Origin: Mucilaginibacter sp. UR6-1 | GTDB taxonomy: Bacteria > Bacteroidota > Bacteroidia > Sphingobacteriales > Sphingobacteriaceae | DNA length: 64,000 nucleotides | Assembly (NCBI RefSeq): GCF_020880975.1 | Contig: NZ_JAJIWP010000002.1 | Span: 1 to 64,000, forward strand | Direction of reading: 5' to 3' | Shown: positions 21,657 to 61,171 of the stretch, piece after piece | Layout of the letters: every line of letters starts with the position of its first letter | Numbering within the stretch: the first letter of the stretch is position 1 | Program-made: the position numbers and the translations under genes | The notes under the pieces: generated by a model | The model's input: the letters and a program-made list of their open reading frames with translations, nothing else | What the model was told of the DNA's origin: nothing | Database searches by the model: none

Positions 21657-22505
21657 ATGAAATGGCTTGGCAGGCGCGAAAGTAGTAATACCGAACAAGG
21701 CAGCGGCGGTGGTCGTGGTTTGGCATTGGGTGGGGGCGTGGTAGGCATTATTGCCGCCGCTATCTACTTCTTTACCGGGATTGATCCATCAGCAATACTG
21801 GGTGGTACCCAGCAGCAGCAAGGGGAACAAACCAATACCCAGCCCGGCATTGATCCGAACAACCAGCAGCAAAAGTTTGTAAGTGTTGTACTTGCCGATA
21901 CCGAAGATATATGGGGGAAACTGTTTAAGGAGATGGGCAAAACATACGAGGAGCCTACCCTTCACTTTTTTGAAGGCGGTGTGCAAACCGAGGGCTGCGG
22001 CTTTGCCCAATCGGCTACAGGGCCGTTTTATTGCCCCGGCGACCGTAAAGTATATATCGACGTTACTTTTTTTGATGAACTGGAGCAACGCTTTGCTGCT
22101 GCCGGAAATTTTGCCCGTGCCTACGTAGTAGCGCACGAGGTTGGGCACCACGTACAGCAACTGCTGGGTACAAGTGCCAAACTGGAGCGTGCCCGTGGTA
22201 ACGTAAGCGAAGCAGAATACAACAAGCTATCGGTAGCGCTGGAACTGCAGGCCGACTTTTACGCAGGTGTATTTGCCCATTACGAAGAAAGCACCAAGAA
22301 CGTTTTAGAACCCGGCGATATTGACGAAGCCCTGAACGCCGCCAACCAAATTGGCGACGACCGCCTGCAAAAAGAAAGCACCGGCCGCGTAGAACCCGAC
22401 AGCTTTACCCACGGCACCAGCGCCCAACGCCAACACTGGTTTAAAAAAGGCTACGAAACAGGTGATGTTAAGCAAGGCGATACTTTTGCGGAGATGGGAT
22501 TATAG
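21657..22505 (+). CDS. YpfJ-type neutral zinc metallopeptidase
   Basis: A 282-residue membrane-anchored protein of the YpfJ/'neutral zinc metallopeptidase' family. After a basic Gly/Ser-rich start, one membrane helix spans about 24-42, then a Gln/Asn-rich linker. The zinc motif HExxH is VVAHEVGHHVQQLLG near 157-171, and the downstream Glu lies in ALELQADFYAG near 197. GFAQSATGPFYCP near 118 is also typical. The substrate is not known. Its last six bases overlap the end of the convergent methyltransferase gene. Confidence 0.88.
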   Translation: MKWLGRRESSNTEQGSGGGRGLALGGGVVGIIAAAIYFFTGIDPSAILGGTQQQQGEQTNTQPGIDPNNQQQKFVSVVLADTEDIWGKLFKEMGKTYEEPTLHFFEGGVQTEGCGFAQSATGPFYCPGDRKVYIDVTFFDELEQRFAAAGNFARAYVVAHEVGHHVQQLLGTSAKLERARGNVSEAEYNKLSVALELQADFYAGVFAHYEESTKNVLEPGDIDEALNAANQIGDDRLQKESTGRVEPDSFTHGTSAQRQHWFKKGYETGDVKQGDTFAEMGL

Positions 22506-23369
22506 GATGATTTTTACATCCGTAAGGTCAATTGTTTCAGGTAAAAATATATTATCTGAATATATAAATACCTCTGTTCCCTTACTTGATTTCGCAGCAC
22601 TATAATTAAGTGAATATTCAAAAGTTTGATGCTTGGAATAAAGTTGCTTTATTTCCAGTGCGTTATCATAGGATACAATCCACTTGTGTCTATCAAGTGA
22701 TGTAATCATCTTACTTACTTCCTCGTGATCGCTGTGTTTATAGTAGTTGACATATAATTCTTTACCTTTTAAATAATATGGAGGGTCAAAGTAGAATAAT
22801 GAATTTATAGGTAGTGTTTTCTTTAACTGCGGAATTAGATTACAAGCATCTAAATTATATAGATTTATTCTGTCAGAATACTTTGCAATTCTTTGTATTC
22901 TCTTAATTAAATTGTCTTTATTATATCGGGCATCAATCTTATAGTTGCCAATTTGATCTATGCCACCAATAACACCACCTTTGATTATACCCGATCTATT
23001 TGTTCTGTTTAAAAAAAAAGTTGAAAATCCTAAATCATCAATATTTGCGATATTTTTTTCTTTTTGGATTTCTTTTTGAAGTTTCCAGGTTTCAATATTA
23101 ACTACAGTATCCTTTATTTTTTTACAAAGACTTTCGGTGTCATTTAACACACTATGCCAAAAAGCATAAATGGATTTGTCATAATCATTTATGACAATAT
23201 TTGATGCATATTCGTCTATCAGTAAAGTTAATGCAACGGATGCTCCGCCTGCATAAGGTTCAATATACCATCCATCCATTAAAAGATTTTTTTTAAAAAT
23301 CTCTTTGATAAAATCAGATACTTTTGCTTTACCTCCAGGGTATCTTAACGGGGAATAAAAGTCTGTCAT
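22500..23369 (-). CDS. DNA adenine N6-methyltransferase, D12 class, orphan
   Basis: A 289-residue Dam-like enzyme that would methylate adenine in duplex DNA. It begins DFYSPLRYPGGKAKVSDFI (motif X), has motif I YIEPYAGGASVALTLL near 35-50 and motif IV FYFDPPYYLKG near 192-202. No endonuclease gene is adjacent. The ATG at 23369 overlaps the upstream stop as ATGA, so the two genes are translationally coupled. Base composition is clearly more AT-rich than neighbours, pointing to horizontal transfer. Its site is not readable from sequence; GATC is only one option. Confidence 0.92.
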   Translation of the reverse strand: MTDFYSPLRYPGGKAKVSDFIKEIFKKNLLMDGWYIEPYAGGASVALTLLIDEYASNIVINDYDKSIYAFWHSVLNDTESLCKKIKDTVVNIETWKLQKEIQKEKNIANIDDLGFSTFFLNRTNRSGIIKGGVIGGIDQIGNYKIDARYNKDNLIKRIQRIAKYSDRINLYNLDACNLIPQLKKTLPINSLFYFDPPYYLKGKELYVNYYKHSDHEEVSKMITSLDRHKWIVSYDNALEIKQLYSKHQTFEYSLNYSAAKSSKGTEVFIYSDNIFLPETIDLTDVKIIL

Positions 23370-24733
23370 ACTAATTCCCAAATTTTCTCAATAAATACTT
23401 GAATAACATCCCAGCTCCTTTTTAAATGTTGTTCATTTGGTGAATAATGTCGGTTATGTACGTATGCATTGAATGTATCTATGGCTAAAATATCATGGGC
23501 ATCATTTATTGAAACTCTAATACCCTTGAGCTCATGGTCTGTCAATAAGTTTCTGGCTTCTAAATAATCCGCTACTTTTTCAATTTTTTCCTTTAATGGC
23601 GTAAGTTTTTTCACTCCTTTAATAGCCCCTTGTTTACTTGCAATAAAAGCATCGATACTTAGTTCGATAAATACACGGAAAATAACAGCAGTGGAATTGA
23701 CGAAATCTGCTACGTTTAAATCTTTTAATTCGTGATAAATAGTATTGACTCTCTGGTCGGTAATTTTTATTATACAGTTTTTAGGTATCAAATATTTCCG
23801 ATCTGAAGTAGGGGGAAGGCTTCTTATACTTTTTGGAGTATTAATTGGAGCAGTTTTATCATCTATTTTTAATGTAGAAGATATTAATTGCCAAGGGGAT
23901 TTGGATTTATTTGTTTTGTCAGGTAGCTCTGTTTTCTGAAAACCTTCAATGTAGTTTTTTCGATCATTCTTTGTTCTTATTGCATTAACAGTATAATCCT
24001 TATATAAAAAATCTGAAGCTATTTTTGATAAGCCTTTAACCAATTCGGGTTCTTGTAAGTCAGAGCTTAATATTTTATTTGTGTATTTTATACCTAAAAC
24101 ATCCCTAACATCCGGGTCTGTTAGAAGACGCTCGACATTTGTATATGTTAGGTTTGATAGATCTTCTTTTAATTTATGGTCTGTAAAATTGGAACGTTGT
24201 AAAAATTCGATGGCTTGTAATGCAATCGGATTATGTCCTTTAATCTTTTTACTGAATCGTGCCTGTTGAGTTGTATCCCAAGCTACAGTTCCAACACCAC
24301 CGTTTTCTCCTGTATGTTTAAGTTCTATCCATTTGTCCGCATCTGCGGGGTTCTCAAATACTAAACAGTCAATGTTTGAAATGGGTTTTTTTGCAAAATT
24401 TTCAACATGCGGCTTTAGTTTTTTTAAGAAGCTCACACTCTTGGCGTCCACTATATCGGGGGAGTTTAAAATTTTCAAAATACTAACTCTTCTATTACCC
24501 TCTAAGACAGTGAATCTTTTTTTGTCTTCTTTGTTAGGCGTTACATATATTGGATCACCTGGGTTTAGACCGGCATCTAAAATATCTTTTGCTAGTTTTA
24601 TTAATTTTTCAGGCTGGTCATCAACCATTAATTGTATTGCATCCCTTTGGTTGGTAACCATTTCGAAACGGGGATTTTCAATGCTAACAATTAGGTTAGT
24701 AAGTTTGATAGCTTGTCTTTGAGCGTCTGGCAT
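23366..24733 (-). CDS. ParB-like N-domain protein, partner of the methyltransferase
   Basis: A 455-residue protein with a ParB/Srx-type N-terminal domain (about 10-100), including ENPRFEM and the ParB motif VLEGNRRVSILKIL near 75-88. The middle is Lys-rich. The C-terminus (about 350-455) is helical and ends DTFNAYVHNRHYSPNE followed by WDVIQVFIEKIW; the conserved-looking polar patch recalls HEPN-like domains, but this is tentative. There are no helix-turn-helix or plasmid partition neighbours, so chromosome partition is unlikely. AT-rich and coupled to the methyltransferase, it may be part of a modification-based defence or selfish cassette. Confidence 0.72.
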   Translation of the reverse strand: MPDAQRQAIKLTNLIVSIENPRFEMVTNQRDAIQLMVDDQPEKLIKLAKDILDAGLNPGDPIYVTPNKEDKKRFTVLEGNRRVSILKILNSPDIVDAKSVSFLKKLKPHVENFAKKPISNIDCLVFENPADADKWIELKHTGENGGVGTVAWDTTQQARFSKKIKGHNPIALQAIEFLQRSNFTDHKLKEDLSNLTYTNVERLLTDPDVRDVLGIKYTNKILSSDLQEPELVKGLSKIASDFLYKDYTVNAIRTKNDRKNYIEGFQKTELPDKTNKSKSPWQLISSTLKIDDKTAPINTPKSIRSLPPTSDRKYLIPKNCIIKITDQRVNTIYHELKDLNVADFVNSTAVIFRVFIELSIDAFIASKQGAIKGVKKLTPLKEKIEKVADYLEARNLLTDHELKGIRVSINDAHDILAIDTFNAYVHNRHYSPNEQHLKRSWDVIQVFIEKIWELV

Positions 24734-24757
24734 TGTTTAAATAAGATAAGGTTTACT

Positions 24758-24765
24758 CAAAGGTA
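24758..24765 (-). promoter_or_regulatory. -7 element of the ParB-like/methyltransferase cassette
   Basis: The minus strand reads TACCTTTG, a perfect TAnnTTTG, 24 bases before the start codon. The -33 position reads TTAG rather than TTTG. The cassette therefore seems to be read by the host housekeeping polymerase. Confidence 0.55.
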
Positions 24766-24835
24766 TTAATTTGTTTAAAAAAAACTAATTTTATAAACTT
24801 GATGAAACTCAATTCATTTGCTGTTCTCTATTAAT

Positions 24836-25663
24836 ATGAAACAACTCCACCTCTACATAATCCTTTCTTTATTCCTCCTCACCACCTCTTGCTCCCCCAA
24901 AAAAGGACCTTACGCTGTAACCAACAAGGTGTATAACGAGCAGGCCGAAGCCTTTGCGCAAACGTTGCTGCAAACCGAGCCGGTGGTTTTGACGGATAGC
25001 CTGGGACGTAAGCTGGTCAGCGAGTGGGTGGGTACGGTAAATTTTAATCTGCGCAAGCCTAACTATGTGGTAATCCACTATACCGCGCAGGATTCGGCGG
25101 CGCAAACGCTTAAAACATTTACCATCACCAAAACGCAGGTGAGCGCGCATTACGTCATCGGCGGTGATGGGCGCATATACCACATGCTTAACGATTACCT
25201 GCGCGCCTGGCATGGCGGTTCGGGCAAGTGGGGCAACGGTACTGATGTTAACAGCTCATCCATTGGTATTGAGCTGGACAACAACGGCAAGTCGCCCTTT
25301 AACGATGCGCAGATCAACAGCCTTGTTATTTTGTTAGCGCATCTTAAAAAATCATATAATATCCCAACGGCCAATTTTATCGGGCACCAGGACCTGGCGC
25401 CTACCCGCAAAGTTGATCCCGGTAAATACTTCCCCTGGAAAAAGCTGGCCGAAAAAGGCTTTGGCTACTGGAGCAACGATGTGCTTGAACTGGCTCCCGA
25501 AGGGTTTGACGTAGCTACCGCCTTACGATTGATCGGTTACGATACCAGCAACCTCAACGCTGCCATATCAGCCTTTAAAAACCACTTTATTCAGGCCGAT
25601 AGCTCACCGGTACTATCACAACTCGACCTGAATGTGCTGTACAATGTTTACCAAAAATATTGA
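24836..25663 (+). CDS. N-acetylmuramoyl-L-alanine amidase, lipoprotein
   Basis: A 275-residue exported amidase of the amidase_2 (AmiD/AmpD) family that cleaves the bond between muramic acid and the peptide stem. The signal ends in the lipobox TTSC near residue 19. Zinc ligands and catalytic residues lie in VIHYTAQDS near 77, AWHGGSGKWG near 125, SSIGIELDN near 142 and FIGHQDLAPTRKVDPG near 180. It probably recycles or remodels peptidoglycan in the periplasm. The ATG at 24836 is chosen over a TTG 18 bases upstream because the signal peptide starts there. Confidence 0.9.
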   Translation: MKQLHLYIILSLFLLTTSCSPKKGPYAVTNKVYNEQAEAFAQTLLQTEPVVLTDSLGRKLVSEWVGTVNFNLRKPNYVVIHYTAQDSAAQTLKTFTITKTQVSAHYVIGGDGRIYHMLNDYLRAWHGGSGKWGNGTDVNSSSIGIELDNNGKSPFNDAQINSLVILLAHLKKSYNIPTANFIGHQDLAPTRKVDPGKYFPWKKLAEKGFGYWSNDVLELAPEGFDVATALRLIGYDTSNLNAAISAFKNHFIQADSSPVLSQLDLNVLYNVYQKY

Positions 25664-45987: not shown

Positions 45988-46632
45988 ATGATATTTGACT
46001 TTCTAAAAACGATTAAGATATCGTATGGAATAACAGTTTGCAATGAGGCAAAGGAGCTTGAAGATTTGTTAAACACGCTTTTGCCATTAATTGATAAACA
46101 CGACGATGTAATTGTTTTGCAGGATGTAACAAATGAAAATGATGCTGTTAATAAGATTATTGAAAAATATAAAAATAGGGTAATAGTTTTTAAAACCCAT
46201 CTTAATGATGATTTCGCAACTTTTAAAAACAACCTTATAACCATTGCTAAAGGTGATTACCTTTTTCAGATGGATGCTGATGAAATACCCAAAGCATCAC
46301 TTATAAAACATCTTAAACCTATACTTAAAAAAAATAAGCGTAACGATTGCTTTTTAGTGCCCCGTATAAACATTGTTAACGGTTATACCGATGAACATAT
46401 TAAACAATGGAACTGGCACATAAATAGCAGCGGTTACATTAATTATCCCGACTATCAGCCCCGCATAATTAAACTGAATGGAAAGATAAAATGGAAAAAC
46501 AAGGTGCACGAAGTATTTACCGGTTTTGAAAATGAGTTTTTACTCCCTGCAGAAGATTTTGACCTTTGTTTGCTACATATTAAAGATATAGAACGACAAG
46601 AACGGCAAAATGCATATTATGATACCATTTAA
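45988..46632 (+). CDS. glycosyltransferase family 2 (WaaE-like)
   Basis: A 214-residue GT2 enzyme: ISYGITVCNEAKELEDLL near 11-28 and the DxD motif in FQMDADEIPKASL near 93. The short, soluble form resembles core-oligosaccharide transferases (KdtX/WaaE type), which lack a membrane segment. AT-rich relative to the window. It faces convergently the minus-strand cluster and probably belongs functionally with it. Confidence 0.82.
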   Translation: MIFDFLKTIKISYGITVCNEAKELEDLLNTLLPLIDKHDDVIVLQDVTNENDAVNKIIEKYKNRVIVFKTHLNDDFATFKNNLITIAKGDYLFQMDADEIPKASLIKHLKPILKKNKRNDCFLVPRINIVNGYTDEHIKQWNWHINSSGYINYPDYQPRIIKLNGKIKWKNKVHEVFTGFENEFLLPAEDFDLCLLHIKDIERQERQNAYYDTI

Positions 46633-46643
46633 TACCTCCATTA

Positions 46644-47585
46644 TTAAGCATTCAATTCAGCTACGATTGACTCAAAATGGCTTTGGAACAAGAAGTCATG
46701 TCCACCTTCACCTTCAGGTACTACATTGATCACATCAAATGATGTTTCGAGTACACGCTTAACCTTCAGTCCTTCGGCAATTGAAAAAGGAAATGATTGA
46801 TTCCCAATAAAAAACTTACATCCTGCAATTACTGAAGCAAGTTTTAAAAAATCAGAAACCTGTAGCCATTCTATATCAGGCACAATTTGTTTAATATCGT
46901 CGTATTCGCTTTTTACACCTATAAAAAGTTTATTTTTATATTGCTGTAAAAACGAATGATCTGTTAACAAGTTACGATAACGCTCACTACGGGCAACGAT
47001 AATAGTATCATTATATGAAGCATCAGGTTCAACAAACAGCCATTTTTTCCACAATTCTAAATTAACACCGGTAATGTATCCGCACCAGCGGGCTATGTTG
47101 CCTTTATCAAGCGGAATTAATCCTGCCCTAAAATAATCCAGGTCTATATCAATACGCTGTGTAGTAGTAATATCGCAAGTATTAATGTAAGGTTGTGCAG
47201 CAACAAGCGGAATAAGTAACTCTGCCATTTTTTGGTTGAGCATAACATTACCAAGCGGGTGAGTGTACCCCTTGGCAAGTTGCATTGGCTGATTTATCTT
47301 CAGATACAGGTTAACAGGTAATCCTGTTAATTCATGTAACTTTTTAATGGTCGGCAATGAATAAATAATATCGCCGGAATTGCCGCTGTGACTAAAATTG
47401 ATGCTTCCGTTTGACTGTGCTTTAGTTACAATATCATTCATCCTGAAAAGGTGCTGATGCTCAAACATTGTTTTAGCATATTCAGCACGTTTTGAAGCAT
47501 CCAGATTATATTTATATAGTTTGTATGCTTCTCTGTTGGTATATTTTAGCCAGTTTTTACTAAAAAAACCTTTCTTTTTTGCCAT
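46644..47585 (-). CDS. GT9-like glycosyltransferase or related GT-B protein
   Basis: A 313-residue protein with a basic N-terminal arm (KKKGFFSKNWLKYTN). FSHSGNSGDIIYSLPTIKKL near 64-83 resembles the acceptor-side GDxxxxxP motif of heptosyltransferases. The C-terminal FFIGNQSFPFSIAEGLKVKR near 265-284 resembles the donor-site region of GT9. Divergence is high, so the family call is tentative. It ends 11 bases after the plus-strand GT2 stop and starts just after the MsbA-like gene. Confidence 0.65.
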   Translation of the reverse strand: MAKKKGFFSKNWLKYTNREAYKLYKYNLDASKRAEYAKTMFEHQHLFRMNDIVTKAQSNGSINFSHSGNSGDIIYSLPTIKKLHELTGLPVNLYLKINQPMQLAKGYTHPLGNVMLNQKMAELLIPLVAAQPYINTCDITTTQRIDIDLDYFRAGLIPLDKGNIARWCGYITGVNLELWKKWLFVEPDASYNDTIIVARSERYRNLLTDHSFLQQYKNKLFIGVKSEYDDIKQIVPDIEWLQVSDFLKLASVIAGCKFFIGNQSFPFSIAEGLKVKRVLETSFDVINVVPEGEGGHDFLFQSHFESIVAELNA

Positions 47586-47598
47586 AAATTAAGGTTGG

Positions 47599-49434
47599 TT
47601 AATCGTTGTTAAACGTTTGCATATCAATAAGTTTTCGGTACAGCCCATTGTGTTCCATCAATTCGACGTGGTTACCTTGCTCAACAATACGGCCTTCTTC
47701 AAGCACTACTATAATGTCAGCATTTTGTATGGTGCTTAAGCGGTGTGCTATAATTAATGATGTGCGATTTTTCATTAGGTTGTTTAGAGCATCCTGGACC
47801 AGTTTTTCTGATTCTGTATCCAGTGCTGAAGTTGCCTCATCAAGCAGCATAATAGGCGGGTTATTAAGTACCGCACGTGCAATACTGATTCGCTGCCTTT
47901 GCCCGCCCGAAAGTTTTACACCACGGTCACCAATATTTGTTTGATAGCCATTATCGGTATCCATAATAAAGTTATGGGCATTGGCAATGCGAGCTGCTGC
48001 CTCAACTTGCTCCTGTGTAATACCGGTTTTACCAAAGGCAATGTTGTTGAAAATAGTGTCGTTAAATAATATTGACTCCTGGTTAACAATACCCATCATA
48101 GCACGCAGCGAATCTGAAGTTATATGTTTAATATCTTTATTATCAATTAAAACCGCACCTTCCTTTGGTTCAATAAATCTTGGCAGCAAATCCATAAGTG
48201 TTGATTTACCACCACCCGATGGGCCAACTAATGCTACGGTTTTTCCTTTAGGCACTATGAGATTAATGTTTTTAAGCACCACTCTCTCTTTATAGGCAAA
48301 GCTCAGGTTATTGAGATGTATCCCCTCCTTAAATTCAGTTACATCAACCGCATCAGGTGCATCTGTTATCTGTGGTTTTTCATCAATTAGCGCTAAAATC
48401 CGTTCACCAGCAACCAAGCCCGTATGTATGTTACTAAAAGCATCGCCAAGGGCTTTTGCCGGACGCATTAATTGCGAAAAAAGGGCAATATAGGCTATGA
48501 ACTGGCCAGGCGTAAGCTCTGACTCATTATTGAACAGCAGATAACCACCATATAGCACGATAAAGGAGATCATGATGATGGATAGTGCTTCAGATACAGG
48601 TGATGCCAGTTGCTGCCTTCGAGACATTGCCTTGCCTATGTTTGAATAACGGATGTTTTCATCATCAAAGCGTTTGATAATGAAATTTGTAGCATTAAAT
48701 GCCTTTATAATTTTGATGCCTGAAAGCGCTTCATCAAGGTAGCTTACCATATTGGCATATGAGTTTTGAGCTTCTACAGCCTGCGAGCGAAGTTTTTTTA
48801 CGATGCGCGAAATGATAAGACCAGCTACAGGTATAACCAGTAATGATATTAAGGTAAGTTTTACTGAGGTAGAAAATAATACCACAAGATACGCTATGAG
48901 TAACAATGGCTCCTTAAATATTACCTGCAACGAGCCGGTAACCGTAAACTGCACGGTTTGTACCTCTGATGCTATCTTAGAGATAATATCACCCTTGCGT
49001 TCGTTATTAAAAAAACCAAGATGAAGGTTTATTACATTATCAAATACCGCTTTGCGTATTTTTAGCAGTGTGTGAATGCGCATGTTTTCCATAGTACGTT
49101 GTGACAGGTACCGGAAAAAATTACCTAATATAACCGCCACAACTATAATTACACAAACAAATTGCAGCGCACCAAACTTTCCATTGTGTACAGTATAATC
49201 ATTTAAGTAATATTTAAACCAGCCCGCCACATCAAAGGTAGAAAGGTCACTGCTTACTTTGGCGGCCTTTTCCGGCCCGCACTCGTTCACGTTGAACAAT
49301 GTATTTAGTAGAGGGCCAAGCAAAGCCAATACGGATGTGCTGAATATCACATATAATAATGTATACAGTATATAGGGTATGGCAAATTTTTCAATAGGCT
49401 TGGCAAATGATAGCAGCCTGAAATATGTCTTCAT
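47599..49434 (-). CDS. MsbA-like ABC exporter/flippase
   Basis: A 611-residue half-exporter with six membrane helices (about 20-345) and a C-terminal ATPase: Walker A GPSGGGKSTL near 406, signature KLSGGQRQRISIARA near 507, Walker B MLLDEATSALD near 531 and the switch His in IIAHRLST. The MsbA subfamily flips lipid A-core or lipid-linked glycans across the inner membrane. Its place inside the glycosyltransferase cluster supports this role. The lumenal loop holds a Cys (NVNECGPEK near 49). Confidence 0.88.
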   Translation of the reverse strand: MKTYFRLLSFAKPIEKFAIPYILYTLLYVIFSTSVLALLGPLLNTLFNVNECGPEKAAKVSSDLSTFDVAGWFKYYLNDYTVHNGKFGALQFVCVIIVVAVILGNFFRYLSQRTMENMRIHTLLKIRKAVFDNVINLHLGFFNNERKGDIISKIASEVQTVQFTVTGSLQVIFKEPLLLIAYLVVLFSTSVKLTLISLLVIPVAGLIISRIVKKLRSQAVEAQNSYANMVSYLDEALSGIKIIKAFNATNFIIKRFDDENIRYSNIGKAMSRRQQLASPVSEALSIIMISFIVLYGGYLLFNNESELTPGQFIAYIALFSQLMRPAKALGDAFSNIHTGLVAGERILALIDEKPQITDAPDAVDVTEFKEGIHLNNLSFAYKERVVLKNINLIVPKGKTVALVGPSGGGKSTLMDLLPRFIEPKEGAVLIDNKDIKHITSDSLRAMMGIVNQESILFNDTIFNNIAFGKTGITQEQVEAAARIANAHNFIMDTDNGYQTNIGDRGVKLSGGQRQRISIARAVLNNPPIMLLDEATSALDTESEKLVQDALNNLMKNRTSLIIAHRLSTIQNADIIVVLEEGRIVEQGNHVELMEHNGLYRKLIDMQTFNND

Positions 49435-49607
49435 TAAAATTTTATAAAAGCGCGCAAAGCTAACAGTAATTAAACAATTATTATTATAACGTTAAACCGT
49501 AAGCCATTATATATATACTGAAAAGCTTATGGCTGTTACGTTATTTATAGCTTTAACGCTACAACTTATGGTTAGTTATCAGGGGTGAGTTTATATGAGC
49601 TTGTTTT

Positions 49608-50432
49608 TCAGTTGATTAATTTTTTATAAAAAACGTTAATACGTTCAACGTTTTTAAAAATCCGCTTAAAGAGTTTGGTGGTGTATAACCGGTTTTTGAA
49701 TGCGGAGCCCGAAATATAAAAGGTTGCTATAGTAGTATTAAGATAACGGCCTTTAAAAAACAGCGCGTATTTTTTTCGGGTACGTTCAACGGTTTGATCA
49801 AATGAATAATCAATATTGCCCAGGCTTTTATGTATAAGTAAAAAATCTATCACGTGGCAGGTGTAACCCAGCATTTCGGCCGTCATGCATATATCAAGGC
49901 CATATAAATGGTAACCGCCAATGTTGCCTGATAAAGCCAGGTTAGCGGCATTTTTTACCACCATAAAATTTTCGTCAACACTGCATACCCTGGCTGGTTG
50001 TTTCCCTTTTACATCAACGAAACCGTTTGGGTAACTAATTTTTATAGAAAGCTTTTTATAAAGCCTCGGGGCCGCCCCGGCATTACCTAATACCGCCCAA
50101 TTCGGGTGTAGTGCATCCATTTCATTAATACGTTTCTGTAATATGGAACGGGTACTGTGTTCGGTAAGTAGTATATCCTGATGGCATAAAATAATGTATT
50201 CACCTTTAGCTGATTGAAGGAATGAATTGAGCCCCGTGTAAGCATCCACTTTATTGGCGGCACTGTTATCAGCAATAAGAAACTCACAGTCTGCCGGATC
50301 AAAACCTCCTTTAATGAATGATTCGAGCATCTCAGTATATTCCTGCTTTTGGGTTACCAGTGTGCATATTGAATATTTGTATCGATACTCAGGTAAATCA
50401 ATACTTTTTACAAAATCAGGCAGGTTACTCAT
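49608..50432 (-). CDS. glycosyltransferase, GT2-like
   Basis: A 274-residue GT-A-like enzyme. The N-terminal YKYSICTLVTQKQEY and EFLIADNSAANKVDAY segments fit the nucleotide-binding fold; the metal motif position reads ILCHQDILL near 97-105 rather than a plain DxD. The C-terminus is basic. It lies immediately after another GT2 gene (no gap) in the minus-strand cluster and probably adds one sugar to the surface glycan. Confidence 0.75.
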   Translation of the reverse strand: MSNLPDFVKSIDLPEYRYKYSICTLVTQKQEYTEMLESFIKGGFDPADCEFLIADNSAANKVDAYTGLNSFLQSAKGEYIILCHQDILLTEHSTRSILQKRINEMDALHPNWAVLGNAGAAPRLYKKLSIKISYPNGFVDVKGKQPARVCSVDENFMVVKNAANLALSGNIGGYHLYGLDICMTAEMLGYTCHVIDFLLIHKSLGNIDYSFDQTVERTRKKYALFFKGRYLNTTIATFYISGSAFKNRLYTTKLFKRIFKNVERINVFYKKLIN

Positions 50433-51434
50433 CTAATTTCTGTTTAATACGGCATCAATAGATGCTTTGATATTTTTTTTACATTGCCGGTAATCCATGT
50501 AGCGATTGTTGGCGATGGCTTGTTTTGTAAAAGCGGCCTTGTATACCCGTATATCAGGCAAGAGGCCGGTAAACAGCTTCACCGATGTATAAAAGTATAC
50601 TTGTCCGGTGATCCATTTATAGAACAATGCTACGAACGTGGCAAAGGCCCATAACATTTTAAGCCCGCTGCCAAGGTGCAGGTAATGCAATGTAAGTTTG
50701 TTACGGGTACTTATGGTTTTGATCTTTTTTCGGGAGTTATGGCTTTTAATGGTTGATGATACTTCATGCCTGCAAACTGATGCAGGCACATAATAGCACT
50801 TCCAACTATTTTGCCATGCCCTTAACGATAAATCAAGATCCTCATGATAATAGGGCGAAAACAACTCGTTAAAACCACCTAACTGCATCAGCTTATCGCG
50901 ATTTACTAAAGCATTTGCGCCGCTTAAATAAAATGTATATATGTGATGAACGTTTTTTATATCGACGTTTCTTATCTTATTGATTTTATAAACAGAGCTA
51001 AGGGGGTATTTACATGATTCAGAGATATTGCCATTTGCCTCATCTATAATACATCCCATTGTTCCAAATGTATCGGGTTGCTCAAATAACACAAGTTGGT
51101 GTTCAAAATAATTTTCGTCAATCGATACATCACTGTTAAGCAATAACACCAACTCAAGGTTAGCCTGCTTAATACCCCTGTTTATGTTGGTTGAAAAGCC
51201 TTTGTTATCGGTGTCTGTTGTTGTTATAATATCAGGATAATGCTCATTTAAAAAGCTAATACTATCATCGGTTGAAGCATCATCAGCAACTATTATTTCA
51301 AAAGTGCAGCCAATTTTACGTAATGCATTATATATTGATGGCAGGTTTTTTTGCAATAGCACTTTGCCATTATAGTTAGGTATAACAACTGATATACCTT
51401 GAGGCGATTGTGTAATGTTATCTACTTTTTCCAA
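50433..51434 (-). CDS. glycosyltransferase family 2, rhamnosyl-type
   Basis: A 333-residue GT2 enzyme with SVVIPNYNGKVLLQKNLPSI near 15-34 and the DxD-type segment VLLLNSDVSIDENYF near 96-110. HEDLDLSLRAW near 191-201 is the catalytic-base region. One hydrophobic helix near 259-280 probably tethers it to the membrane. It starts at TTG and overlaps the upstream GT9 gene by 13 bases, indicating coupling. Confidence 0.85.
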   Translation of the reverse strand: MEKVDNITQSPQGISVVIPNYNGKVLLQKNLPSIYNALRKIGCTFEIIVADDASTDDSISFLNEHYPDIITTTDTDNKGFSTNINRGIKQANLELVLLLNSDVSIDENYFEHQLVLFEQPDTFGTMGCIIDEANGNISESCKYPLSSVYKINKIRNVDIKNVHHIYTFYLSGANALVNRDKLMQLGGFNELFSPYYHEDLDLSLRAWQNSWKCYYVPASVCRHEVSSTIKSHNSRKKIKTISTRNKLTLHYLHLGSGLKMLWAFATFVALFYKWITGQVYFYTSVKLFTGLLPDIRVYKAAFTKQAIANNRYMDYRQCKKNIKASIDAVLNRN

Positions 51435-52405
51435 TTTCTAATTATTAAAGCTACGGTTTGCGGGTCAATCTCCGCAAGAGTTTCCGATTTACTTTCCAAA
51501 TATCCGGCACGTTCACCCAGCGGTGCCCACCTGCCCGGATGAATGGGCCGAACACATGGAAACAGCCCTAATGTGTTAACGCCCGATGCCGCCGCAATAT
51601 GCAGCGGCCCCGTGCCCGAGGCAATGAGCCCATCAGCATTACGTATAAAATTTACAAACTGATACAGGTCCATTTTACCGGTAATGTTATTTATTGATGG
51701 TGGCAGCTTTTTTATCCAATCGGCAAGCAGTGTCTGTTCTTTTTCTGATCCGCTGATGAATATATTAAACTTCTCTGCCGGTAGCATATTGATAAGCTCG
51801 CCGAAATAATCAAGCGGCCACTCTACCCCGCTGCCATGCGATTTAGGATGCAGTATCAAATTAAATTTATCAGCGGATAGCAGTGCCATAATATTAGCGG
51901 GCACACATTGCCTTGGCTCAAATTGATAATACTTGTATACATCAGCAAGCGGCGGTACAGATAAGCTAAGGGGTTTAAGTAGCACTGTGTTAAGCTGCGC
52001 TTCGTGCAGATCTGATTTTTTGCGGCTCAGCTTTACCAGTTTATTGCAGGTAAGCCAGTGGAATATGCGGTTGGTGGTACCAATGCGAACTGTTATGTCC
52101 GCTGCCTTAGCCAGTTTAGCCACATGCTTGTTCGGAAAGACGTGTATAATACAATCAACGCCAAGGGTTTTAAGTTTAGCCGCCTGCTGCTCAAAGGTTA
52201 ACTTTTGCAGTTCATCATAATTAATAAACTCATTAACCGCTTTGCATGCCTCAATTACAGGCTGTGTATAGGTGCGCCCTAAAAAAGATATTTTAACACC
52301 AGGAAATGCCGACCGTATATACCCGCACATGGGCAGGGTAAGTACTACATCGCCAATGGCATCGGTACGGCTTATCAGTATATGTTTATATGGGGTATGG
52401 CTCAA
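51422..52405 (-). CDS. glycosyltransferase family 9 (heptosyltransferase-like)
   Basis: A 327-residue GT-B enzyme resembling ADP-heptose:LPS heptosyltransferases. Its N-terminus KHILISRTDAIGDVVLTLP near 7-25 carries the conserved Asp, and the C-terminal GPLHIAAASGVNTLGLF near 268-284 is the donor-binding region. It likely adds a heptose or other sugar to the lipid A core. It starts at TTG and overlaps the downstream GT2 start by 13 bases. Confidence 0.88.
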   Translation of the reverse strand: MSHTPYKHILISRTDAIGDVVLTLPMCGYIRSAFPGVKISFLGRTYTQPVIEACKAVNEFINYDELQKLTFEQQAAKLKTLGVDCIIHVFPNKHVAKLAKAADITVRIGTTNRIFHWLTCNKLVKLSRKKSDLHEAQLNTVLLKPLSLSVPPLADVYKYYQFEPRQCVPANIMALLSADKFNLILHPKSHGSGVEWPLDYFGELINMLPAEKFNIFISGSEKEQTLLADWIKKLPPSINNITGKMDLYQFVNFIRNADGLIASGTGPLHIAAASGVNTLGLFPCVRPIHPGRWAPLGERAGYLESKSETLAEIDPQTVALIIRNWKK

Positions 52406-52412
52406 TGCTGAA

Positions 52413-53372
52413 TTACTTTAGCTGCAACGTGTATTCAAAATACTTTTGCAGCACTAATAACGATATAATGTCCTCTTTTTGTTTATCAAAAAACTGCTTA
52501 ACGTAATTATTGGCGTTAACAGCTATTTGCCTGGCCTCTTCGGGGTGATCAATATAATATTGCAGCCGCTCCTCCAGGTCACTAAAATCATCCTTTATAT
52601 GGATGTAATGTACATTAGGTATCAGGCGGCCCTCCATAAACCAGGTTTCGTACCTGGGCGCAGGCATGACCGCAATGGAGTTTGACGACATGATCCATTT
52701 AAGGTTAGTGGCTACATCATTCCCTTCAAGGCTCAGTATAAATTTGTATTGCAAATGTTGTTTGATACCTATCTTAGGCTTTAACCAGGCGATGTTACCG
52801 CCATTGGTATTAACCTGCCCTAAATTGCATAGCGGGCTATTAAAATACATCTCCATAAACCTGATGCGGTGTGGCTGCGTAACCACCCCGCGGCCTATCA
52901 ACACGTCCTGCTTTTTTTCAAAGGGTATCTTATCATCAACAAACACAAAATGCCGGTATTTGTCAAGTTTAAGTAGTACCGCGTTGGCATTATCATCACC
53001 AATTGGCCTGCTTTTTTGAATGGTTGGTTCGGCAGGTGTATGTATCACATCGCCAAATAAAAAACAGGCTTTTAAGTTGCCATCAAAATAGCGGGTGTAC
53101 TCAAATGTATCAAAATTGTAAGCTTTAGGGCTTTTAAATATTGCCATATTCCTTAGCCTTATGGCGCTTTCTCCTAAACTAACCGATTGCTTTAATTTGT
53201 TGTAGTAATTTACCCTGTCGGCAATTTCAGCAGCATTATAGTTATTTAGCGCATTAAGCTTTTTACCCAATAATTGCCTGTATAAAAAACCTGGCAACGC
53301 CTGTCGCAAAATGTTTTTGGCGTAATAAAAAAGTTTGGGTTTTTTAACAGGGCGGCGTTTCACTATATCCAC
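52413..53372 (-). CDS. glycosyltransferase family 90 (CAP10/LpsA-like)
   Basis: A 319-residue protein. The C-terminal half, with KYKFILSLEGNDVATNLKW-like text (QYKFILSLEGNDVATNLKWI near 203-222), the MPAPRYETWF segment and HYIHIKDDFSDLEERLQYYI near 256-275, matches the GT90/CAP10 domain seen in LPS and capsule xylosyl/glucosyl transferases. It is the first gene of the minus-strand cluster, starting at GTG, seven bases upstream of the GT9 gene. Confidence 0.83.
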   Translation of the reverse strand: MDIVKRRPVKKPKLFYYAKNILRQALPGFLYRQLLGKKLNALNNYNAAEIADRVNYYNKLKQSVSLGESAIRLRNMAIFKSPKAYNFDTFEYTRYFDGNLKACFLFGDVIHTPAEPTIQKSRPIGDDNANAVLLKLDKYRHFVFVDDKIPFEKKQDVLIGRGVVTQPHRIRFMEMYFNSPLCNLGQVNTNGGNIAWLKPKIGIKQHLQYKFILSLEGNDVATNLKWIMSSNSIAVMPAPRYETWFMEGRLIPNVHYIHIKDDFSDLEERLQYYIDHPEEARQIAVNANNYVKQFFDKQKEDIISLLVLQKYFEYTLQLK

Positions 53373-60646: not shown

Positions 60647-61171
60647 ATGAAAAAATTAGTATTACTGGTAGTGACTTTTTTAAGTTTTATATCTATTGTA
60701 TCTGCTCAAACTACGTTAAAGCAATACAAGGCTGGCCATACATTCAGCATCAGTTTGCCTGATTATATGTCAAAAACCATTGGTCTTAACAGTGACGCTA
60801 CTATACAATACAAAAGCAAAATAAAAGATGTTTATGGCTTTGTAATAGTGGATAGCAAAGAAGATTTGGCTTTAGCCGAAATGAATTTTTCATCATTAAA
60901 AGAATTTTATGAAAACTTTATTGCCAAATTTTTAAAAGATGAAGAGAAGCGTGTGGTTTCTGCCCCGGTTTACAAAAAAGTTGGTGATATTAATTTTGTT
61001 GAAACTGATGTGACCTATTATGATAAAGAAGCTGAAGCCGAAATATATTATTTGGCCGGTGTAGTTGAAACCAAGGCGGCATTTTATAAAGTAATGTCAT
61101 GGGCTACAAAGGAAAATAAGGATACTTTTAAAGCCGACTTTCAAAAAATACTTTATAGCTTAAAGGATTAA
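60647..61171 (+). CDS. secreted protein of unknown function
   Basis: A 174-residue protein with a signal peptide (VTFLSFISIVSAQTT, cleavage near 20). The mature domain (HTFSISLPDYMSKTIGL, then ATKENKDTFKADFQKILYS) has a mixed alpha/beta pattern resembling small lipid- or PsbP/DUF1795-like proteins, but I cannot assign the family. It is 41 bases after the M28 gene and may share its transcript. Confidence 0.75.
   Translation: MKKLVLLVVTFLSFISIVSAQTTLKQYKAGHTFSISLPDYMSKTIGLNSDATIQYKSKIKDVYGFVIVDSKEDLALAEMNFSSLKEFYENFIAKFLKDEEKRVVSAPVYKKVGDINFVETDVTYYDKEAEAEIYYLAGVVETKAAFYKVMSWATKENKDTFKADFQKILYSLKD

Follow-up and report, generated by a model that had tools for sequence, protein, structure and literature searches.

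Two adjacent minus-strand genes at positions 22500–24733 of the window (the whole 64,000-nucleotide stretch of Mucilaginibacter sp. UR6-1 DNA analyzed here) very probably represent a copy of the PD-Lambda-5 phage defence operon, judging from profile matches to both of its components. The system itself has already been described, and the pair adds another member, in Mucilaginibacter. Its location is newly noticed: comparisons of orthologous loci indicate that the slot holding the pair serves Mucilaginibacter as a small chromosomal hotspot for defence genes.

An intact PD-Lambda-5-like operon

Both open reading frames are real and intact and are joined by an ATGA overlap, as the preliminary description of this DNA had stated. 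The upstream gene (A; 23366–24733, minus strand) encodes 455 residues from an ATG, and the downstream gene (B; 22500–23363, minus strand) encodes 287 residues from the ATG of the overlap; a longer form of B, from a TTG at 23381, is also possible. Protein A matched the PADLOC model PD-Lambda-5_A with an E-value of 4.7e-160 (residues 6–453 on model positions 4–465 of 466), and protein B matched PD-Lambda-5_B with 4.8e-123 (residues 2–279). As is characteristic of PD-Lambda-5, the two genes lie side by side in a single operon. No Pfam model matched A at E-values up to 1, and in PHROGs the protein fell into a family of unknown function. Protein B, on the other hand, passed the cut-off of Pfam MethyltransfD12 (1.9e-19), matched PADLOC MTase_II (1.2e-106) and could be aligned with a site-specific adenine methyltransferase of known structure (PDB 7m6b). 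It carries the YPGGK and DPPYY motifs from which it had been recognized as a D12-class enzyme, i.e., a putative N6-adenine DNA methyltransferase.

PD-Lambda-5 was discovered by functional selection in E. coli, where this two-gene system was found by experiment to block phages (Vassallo et al. 2022, PMC9519451). In its passages on the system, the founding paper describes it as RM+Abi-like and reports that the founding member was cloned in a host without the mrr region. The passage states no reason for this host, which is the one we would expect to be chosen for an active methylase whose product is a target of Mrr. Compared with the E. coli system as presented there, our pair has both components at near full length and in the same two-gene arrangement, but belongs to another phylum and lies in a chromosomal hotspot rather than in a prophage. 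A distant DNA search for the E. coli operon returned only methylase fragments adjoining AAA ATPases. In the literature naming PD-Lambda-5 (mostly titles and abstracts), we found no mechanistic study. The earlier reading of the genes as a modification-linked phage defence pair was right, and the PADLOC profiles now attach a named system to it.

The AT-rich composition that had first drawn attention to the pair was borne out: its GC content is 32.2% (33.6% for A, 29.9% for B), compared with 43.4% in the window as a whole. Among window stretches of the same length, only 0.3% reach so low a GC content, and B ranks as the lowest-GC open reading frame of at least 100 residues in the window. The promoter element noted previously could be read directly from the letters as TACCTTTG (24758–24765, minus strand), 25 bases before the ATG of A; the consensus of the Bacteroidota-type promoter −7 box is TAnnTTTG. 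No good −33 box was visible upstream of A. At the other end of the operon, the stop codon of B overlaps that of a convergent zinc-metallopeptidase gene. The cassette contains no restriction endonuclease gene, in agreement with the preliminary description, and no phage genes lie beside the pair in the window.

Two further regions of the window depart from their surroundings in composition. A lower-GC gene run (45988–53372; 32–45% GC), with several glycosyltransferase-like members, looks like a surface polysaccharide cluster, and a 174-residue gene with a signal-peptide-like start (60647–61171) has 31.6% GC amid genes near 48%.

A variable slot and the distribution of the pair

The pair is flanked on the left by a gene for a putative neutral zinc metallopeptidase (Zn_peptidase, YpfJ type; 21657–22505, plus strand; Pfam PF04228, 1.3e-107) and on the right by one for an N-acetylmuramoyl-L-alanine amidase (Amidase_2; 24836–25663, plus strand; PF01510, 1.1e-34). 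When these flanks were compared with those of the closest relatives, homology stopped at the metallopeptidase stop codon (22504–22513) and restarted at the beginning of the amidase gene or slightly beyond it (24834–24849), which delimits a variable cassette slot between two core genes (22506–24835). Each of the three closest relatives carries a different defence-type gene there: an HNH_2 nuclease in G408 (PADLOC HNH, 2.2e-94), a dCTP-deaminase-type anti-phage protein in G445 (PADLOC dCTPase, 1.2e-160) and an MrcB_N-HNH protein in G472. Empty orthologous loci, proposed earlier as a useful comparison, were also found, the slot of G430 being reduced to 46 bp between coding matches.

A genus-wide tally of this slot, drawn from protein searches, covered 38 syntenic cases: 17 have little or nothing between the flanking genes, 14 hold defence-type cargo and 7 hold other genes. 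The defence-type cassettes, about 1–3.3 kb in length, comprise at least eight kinds (the window plus L101, L102, L103, L126, L127, L129, L131, L133, L134, L137, L138, L140 and L141). Besides PD-Lambda-5, they include HNH_2 nucleases, a dCTP deaminase, MrcB_N-HNH proteins with or without Nudix, a Bro-N protein (PDC-S13), a Schlafen-group-3 helicase (PDC-S41), an ABC-3C system (PDC-M68) and an NgoBV-type RM system with Vsr, where the PDC labels denote candidate systems, not tested ones. We saw no integrase at the cassette, and a search of its ends for target-site duplications and terminal inverted repeats brought up nothing convincing.

The slot could be mined for new Mucilaginibacter defence systems. 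In two genomes, the MrcB_N-HNH gene stands beside a Nudix (MutT-like) gene (L127:1034-2379 and L131:903-2253); since the PADLOC matches of the nuclease are only weak, the two genes may form a type IV-like pair not described before. A family of small open reading frames (N-x-LYRD-x-NYK...) also occurs between the cargo and the amidase gene, or by itself where the slot has no cargo (L101:3225-3404, L129:1036-1332, L137:2987-3499, L140:859-1251 and L143:997-1269), and is possibly a remnant or a partner.

Within Mucilaginibacter, convincing matches to A (E below 1e-100) were restricted to 2 of 150 genomes, with weak ones in 3 more. Only the window genome has the pair at the metallopeptidase–amidase site; M. 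straminoryzae (G533) has it at another locus, its own slot being empty. The pair is therefore not a fixture of this position. Its presence there in most relatives would have spoken against the defence reading; instead, their slots hold other genes or none.

Single-protein scans of genome and viral contigs gave no relatives, but a scan with a four-sequence alignment did. The two genes, which might have proved never to co-occur elsewhere, are neighbours in 35 of the 36 assessable loci, meaning full-length A genes with enough surrounding sequence (left out of the count were duplicates, copies at contig ends, the prophage copy L044 at the end of its record, and L035, L038 and L043, which are short ParB-like proteins). 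The one exception is an A gene on an Azospirillum plasmid (L048), with no neighbouring B. Usually A precedes B on one strand, their ends overlapping or abutting; in a Pseudomonas prophage (L045) the two are convergent, and in L034 the gene nearest to B is a second, short ParB-like gene. The hosts belong to the Bacteroidota, Chlorobiota, Bacillota and Pseudomonadota, with one Methanoregula archaeon in addition, and relatives of both genes occur in prophages. In the record of Vibrio phage PE001 (L044, L188), A and B lie at opposite ends, with HerA-like and integrase genes between them.

Predicted domains of protein A and the partners of protein B

The structural model of A comprises a ParB-CTPase-like domain (residues about 5–165, with EGNRR at 78–82), a helical middle part (about 170–282), a disordered linker (285–309) and a HEPN-like domain (about 327–454). 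The mean pLDDT of the full model was 81.7 and its pTM only 0.48, so that the placement of the domains relative to each other is uncertain. The model gives the N-terminal domain a ParB-CTPase fold, for which the top match in a Foldseek search of the PDB was CDP-bound ParB (probability 1.00, E-value 1.9e-3), accompanied by Noc, KorB and sulfiredoxin, and the probabilities of the better matches were about 0.95–1.00. The best structural matches of A were ParB fragments aligned over 260–300 columns, and may include a ParB-type middle domain, so that the lack of a helix-turn-helix noted in the preliminary description may not hold. The EGNRR motif on which the ParB-like assignment had originally been based, and which supplies the phosphate-binding Arg motif expected of a ParB/Srx fold, is well conserved: N20, R22, G79, N80, R81, R82, W152 and H426 are invariant in the A proteins of 22 relatives.

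According to a survey of ParB-CTPase folds (PMC12704722), these bind CTP, ATP or GTP and often occur as orphan homologues on mobile elements. Protein A shares with those mobile-element proteins the N-terminal fold and a Box-II-like GNRR motif; it differs in having a HEPN-like domain fused to it, HEPN not being mentioned in that paper, and a methyltransferase encoded by a separate gene. A ParABS partition system was rejected, as there is no ParA-like gene beside the pair, whose flanks are the Zn_peptidase and Amidase_2 genes; partition genes had been reported missing in the preliminary description as well. Vibrio phage ValB1MD-2 encodes A as two adjacent genes of 252 and 265 residues (L187:2446-3998), with the ParB domain in one and the C-terminal part in the other; both scored as PD-Lambda-5_A, meaning that the two halves are separable.

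The C-terminal domain (23366–23758, minus strand) had been suspected of being HEPN-like from a polar patch, NAYVHNRHYSPN, which is indeed present. Modelled alone, the domain gave a pLDDT of 90.4 and a pTM of 0.85, and its Foldseek matches were mainly HEPN proteins (AF_0298, MntA-HepT, sacsin and Csm6, with TM scores of about 0.54–0.61 for the better ones). The E-values were weak, about 0.6 for the best match with HEPN or HEPN-MNT in its title and 0.29 for the best of all. No housekeeping domain was matched. Structure prediction leans towards the earlier suggestion, in that the domain models as a HEPN-like helical bundle that keeps an Arg/His pair. Among 28 aligned relatives, R353 and H426 are present in all, position 357 is Glu in 26, position 422 is Asn in 22, and position 427 is Asn in 25 and Ser in 3. 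A divergent ParB-like subgroup (L042, L050) is without R353.

Compared with HEPN ribonucleases and toxins such as HepT and Csm6, the predicted helical fold appears to be the same, but the canonical Rx4-6H motif is replaced. The motif is absent from the window A and from 26 of the 28 aligned domains: position 421, a possible site of its Arg, is always hydrophobic, and the conserved R353 sits on an earlier helix. Consequently, we do not class A as a canonical HEPN RNase, and, given also the weak E-values, the domain may be non-catalytic.

Close relatives of B in a phylum-wide sample adjoin A, a distant A-like gene, or an OLD-like AAA_15 ATPase gene. The latter pairing was also found in prophages of Citrobacter and Streptococcus and on two chromosomes of E. 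coli; the ATPase-paired loci (L177, L184, L185, L186, L189 and L190) lie in prophages, in an integrative element of E. coli and in the genome of a relative. Methylases with an ATPase partner occupy three places in the B tree, whose backbone is unresolved, so that acquisition of the ATPase partner once or several times would both be compatible with it. As in type II restriction–modification, an adenine methyltransferase of an MTase_II-modelled family is encoded in one operon with a second protein; here, however, the second protein is ParB-like and HEPN-like, and no known restriction nuclease domain was detected in it. The occurrence of one methylase family with unrelated partners, itself reminiscent of restriction–modification, is the strongest argument that B is likely the self-marker of host DNA. 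An orphan Dam-like regulator was also considered and rejected.

A possible mechanism and competing explanations

The operon was probably acquired as a single cassette into the Mucilaginibacter hotspot. In the mechanism that we consider most likely, B, whose enzyme class is assigned by homology, would methylate adenines at its recognition site and mark host DNA as self. Protein A would then sense unmarked DNA, or a signal of infection, through its modelled NTP-binding ParB-CTPase domain, and would switch on the HEPN-like domain. In the least certain step, the latter might keep phages from being produced, either through an attack on RNA or some other component of the cell or through restriction of DNA. 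Taken by itself, the HEPN-like effector step is a tentative but reasonable proposal; the published PD-Lambda-5 may work through restriction of DNA instead of cleavage of RNA. A broader combination seems doubtful to us, namely that B-type methyltransferases are a general self-marking module joined to unrelated effectors (the ParB–HEPN-like A and OLD-like ATPases) and, at the same time, that PD-Lambda-5 has as its effector a HEPN-like domain whose active site, R353/H426, is rearranged and which the NTP-loaded ParB domain switches on at unmodified DNA. If true, it would mean a restriction–modification logic with an effector possibly acting on RNA. Residues GNRR 79–82, R353, E357, N422 and H426, together with the natural split of A and the swap for an OLD-like ATPase, make the mechanism directly testable.

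Direct immunity of the restriction–modification kind, in which A would nick or cut B-unmarked DNA through its ParB/Srx-type domain and use the HEPN-like part only for oligomerization or binding, is possible, if rather unlikely. ParB/Srx superfamily proteins with ATP-regulated DNA-nicking activity are cited in PMC12839542, the HEPN catalytic motif is missing from nearly all the aligned relatives (26 of 28), and the OLD-like ATPases paired with B-family methylases are related to known defence ATPases; yet a mere scaffold would not need the invariant R353 and H426. We consider it unlikely that the genes form a toxin–antitoxin or addiction-like pair, with a toxic A silenced by B or its mark and freed when a phage shuts off or inhibits B. 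An overlapping two-gene operon, the frequency of HEPN-like folds among toxins and the term RM+Abi-like in the founding paper's account (PMC9519451) would suit such a pair, whereas the Azospirillum A gene without an adjacent B and the separation of the two genes in phage PE001 would not.

The preliminary description had also offered a phage-derived DNA modification module, which would protect phage DNA if A were a regulator of B. Of this, the phage connection stands, in that both genes have relatives in prophages; the module itself is very unlikely here, since the founding member blocks phages, according to the passages of PMC9519451 on it, and the window copy has housekeeping genes rather than phage genes beside it, and its slot is one that other genomes use for defence genes. 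Finally, we rejected the idea that these are ordinary housekeeping genes of the genus, which is scarcely credible for a pair so rare among the 150 genomes, unique at this site to the window genome and atypical in GC content.
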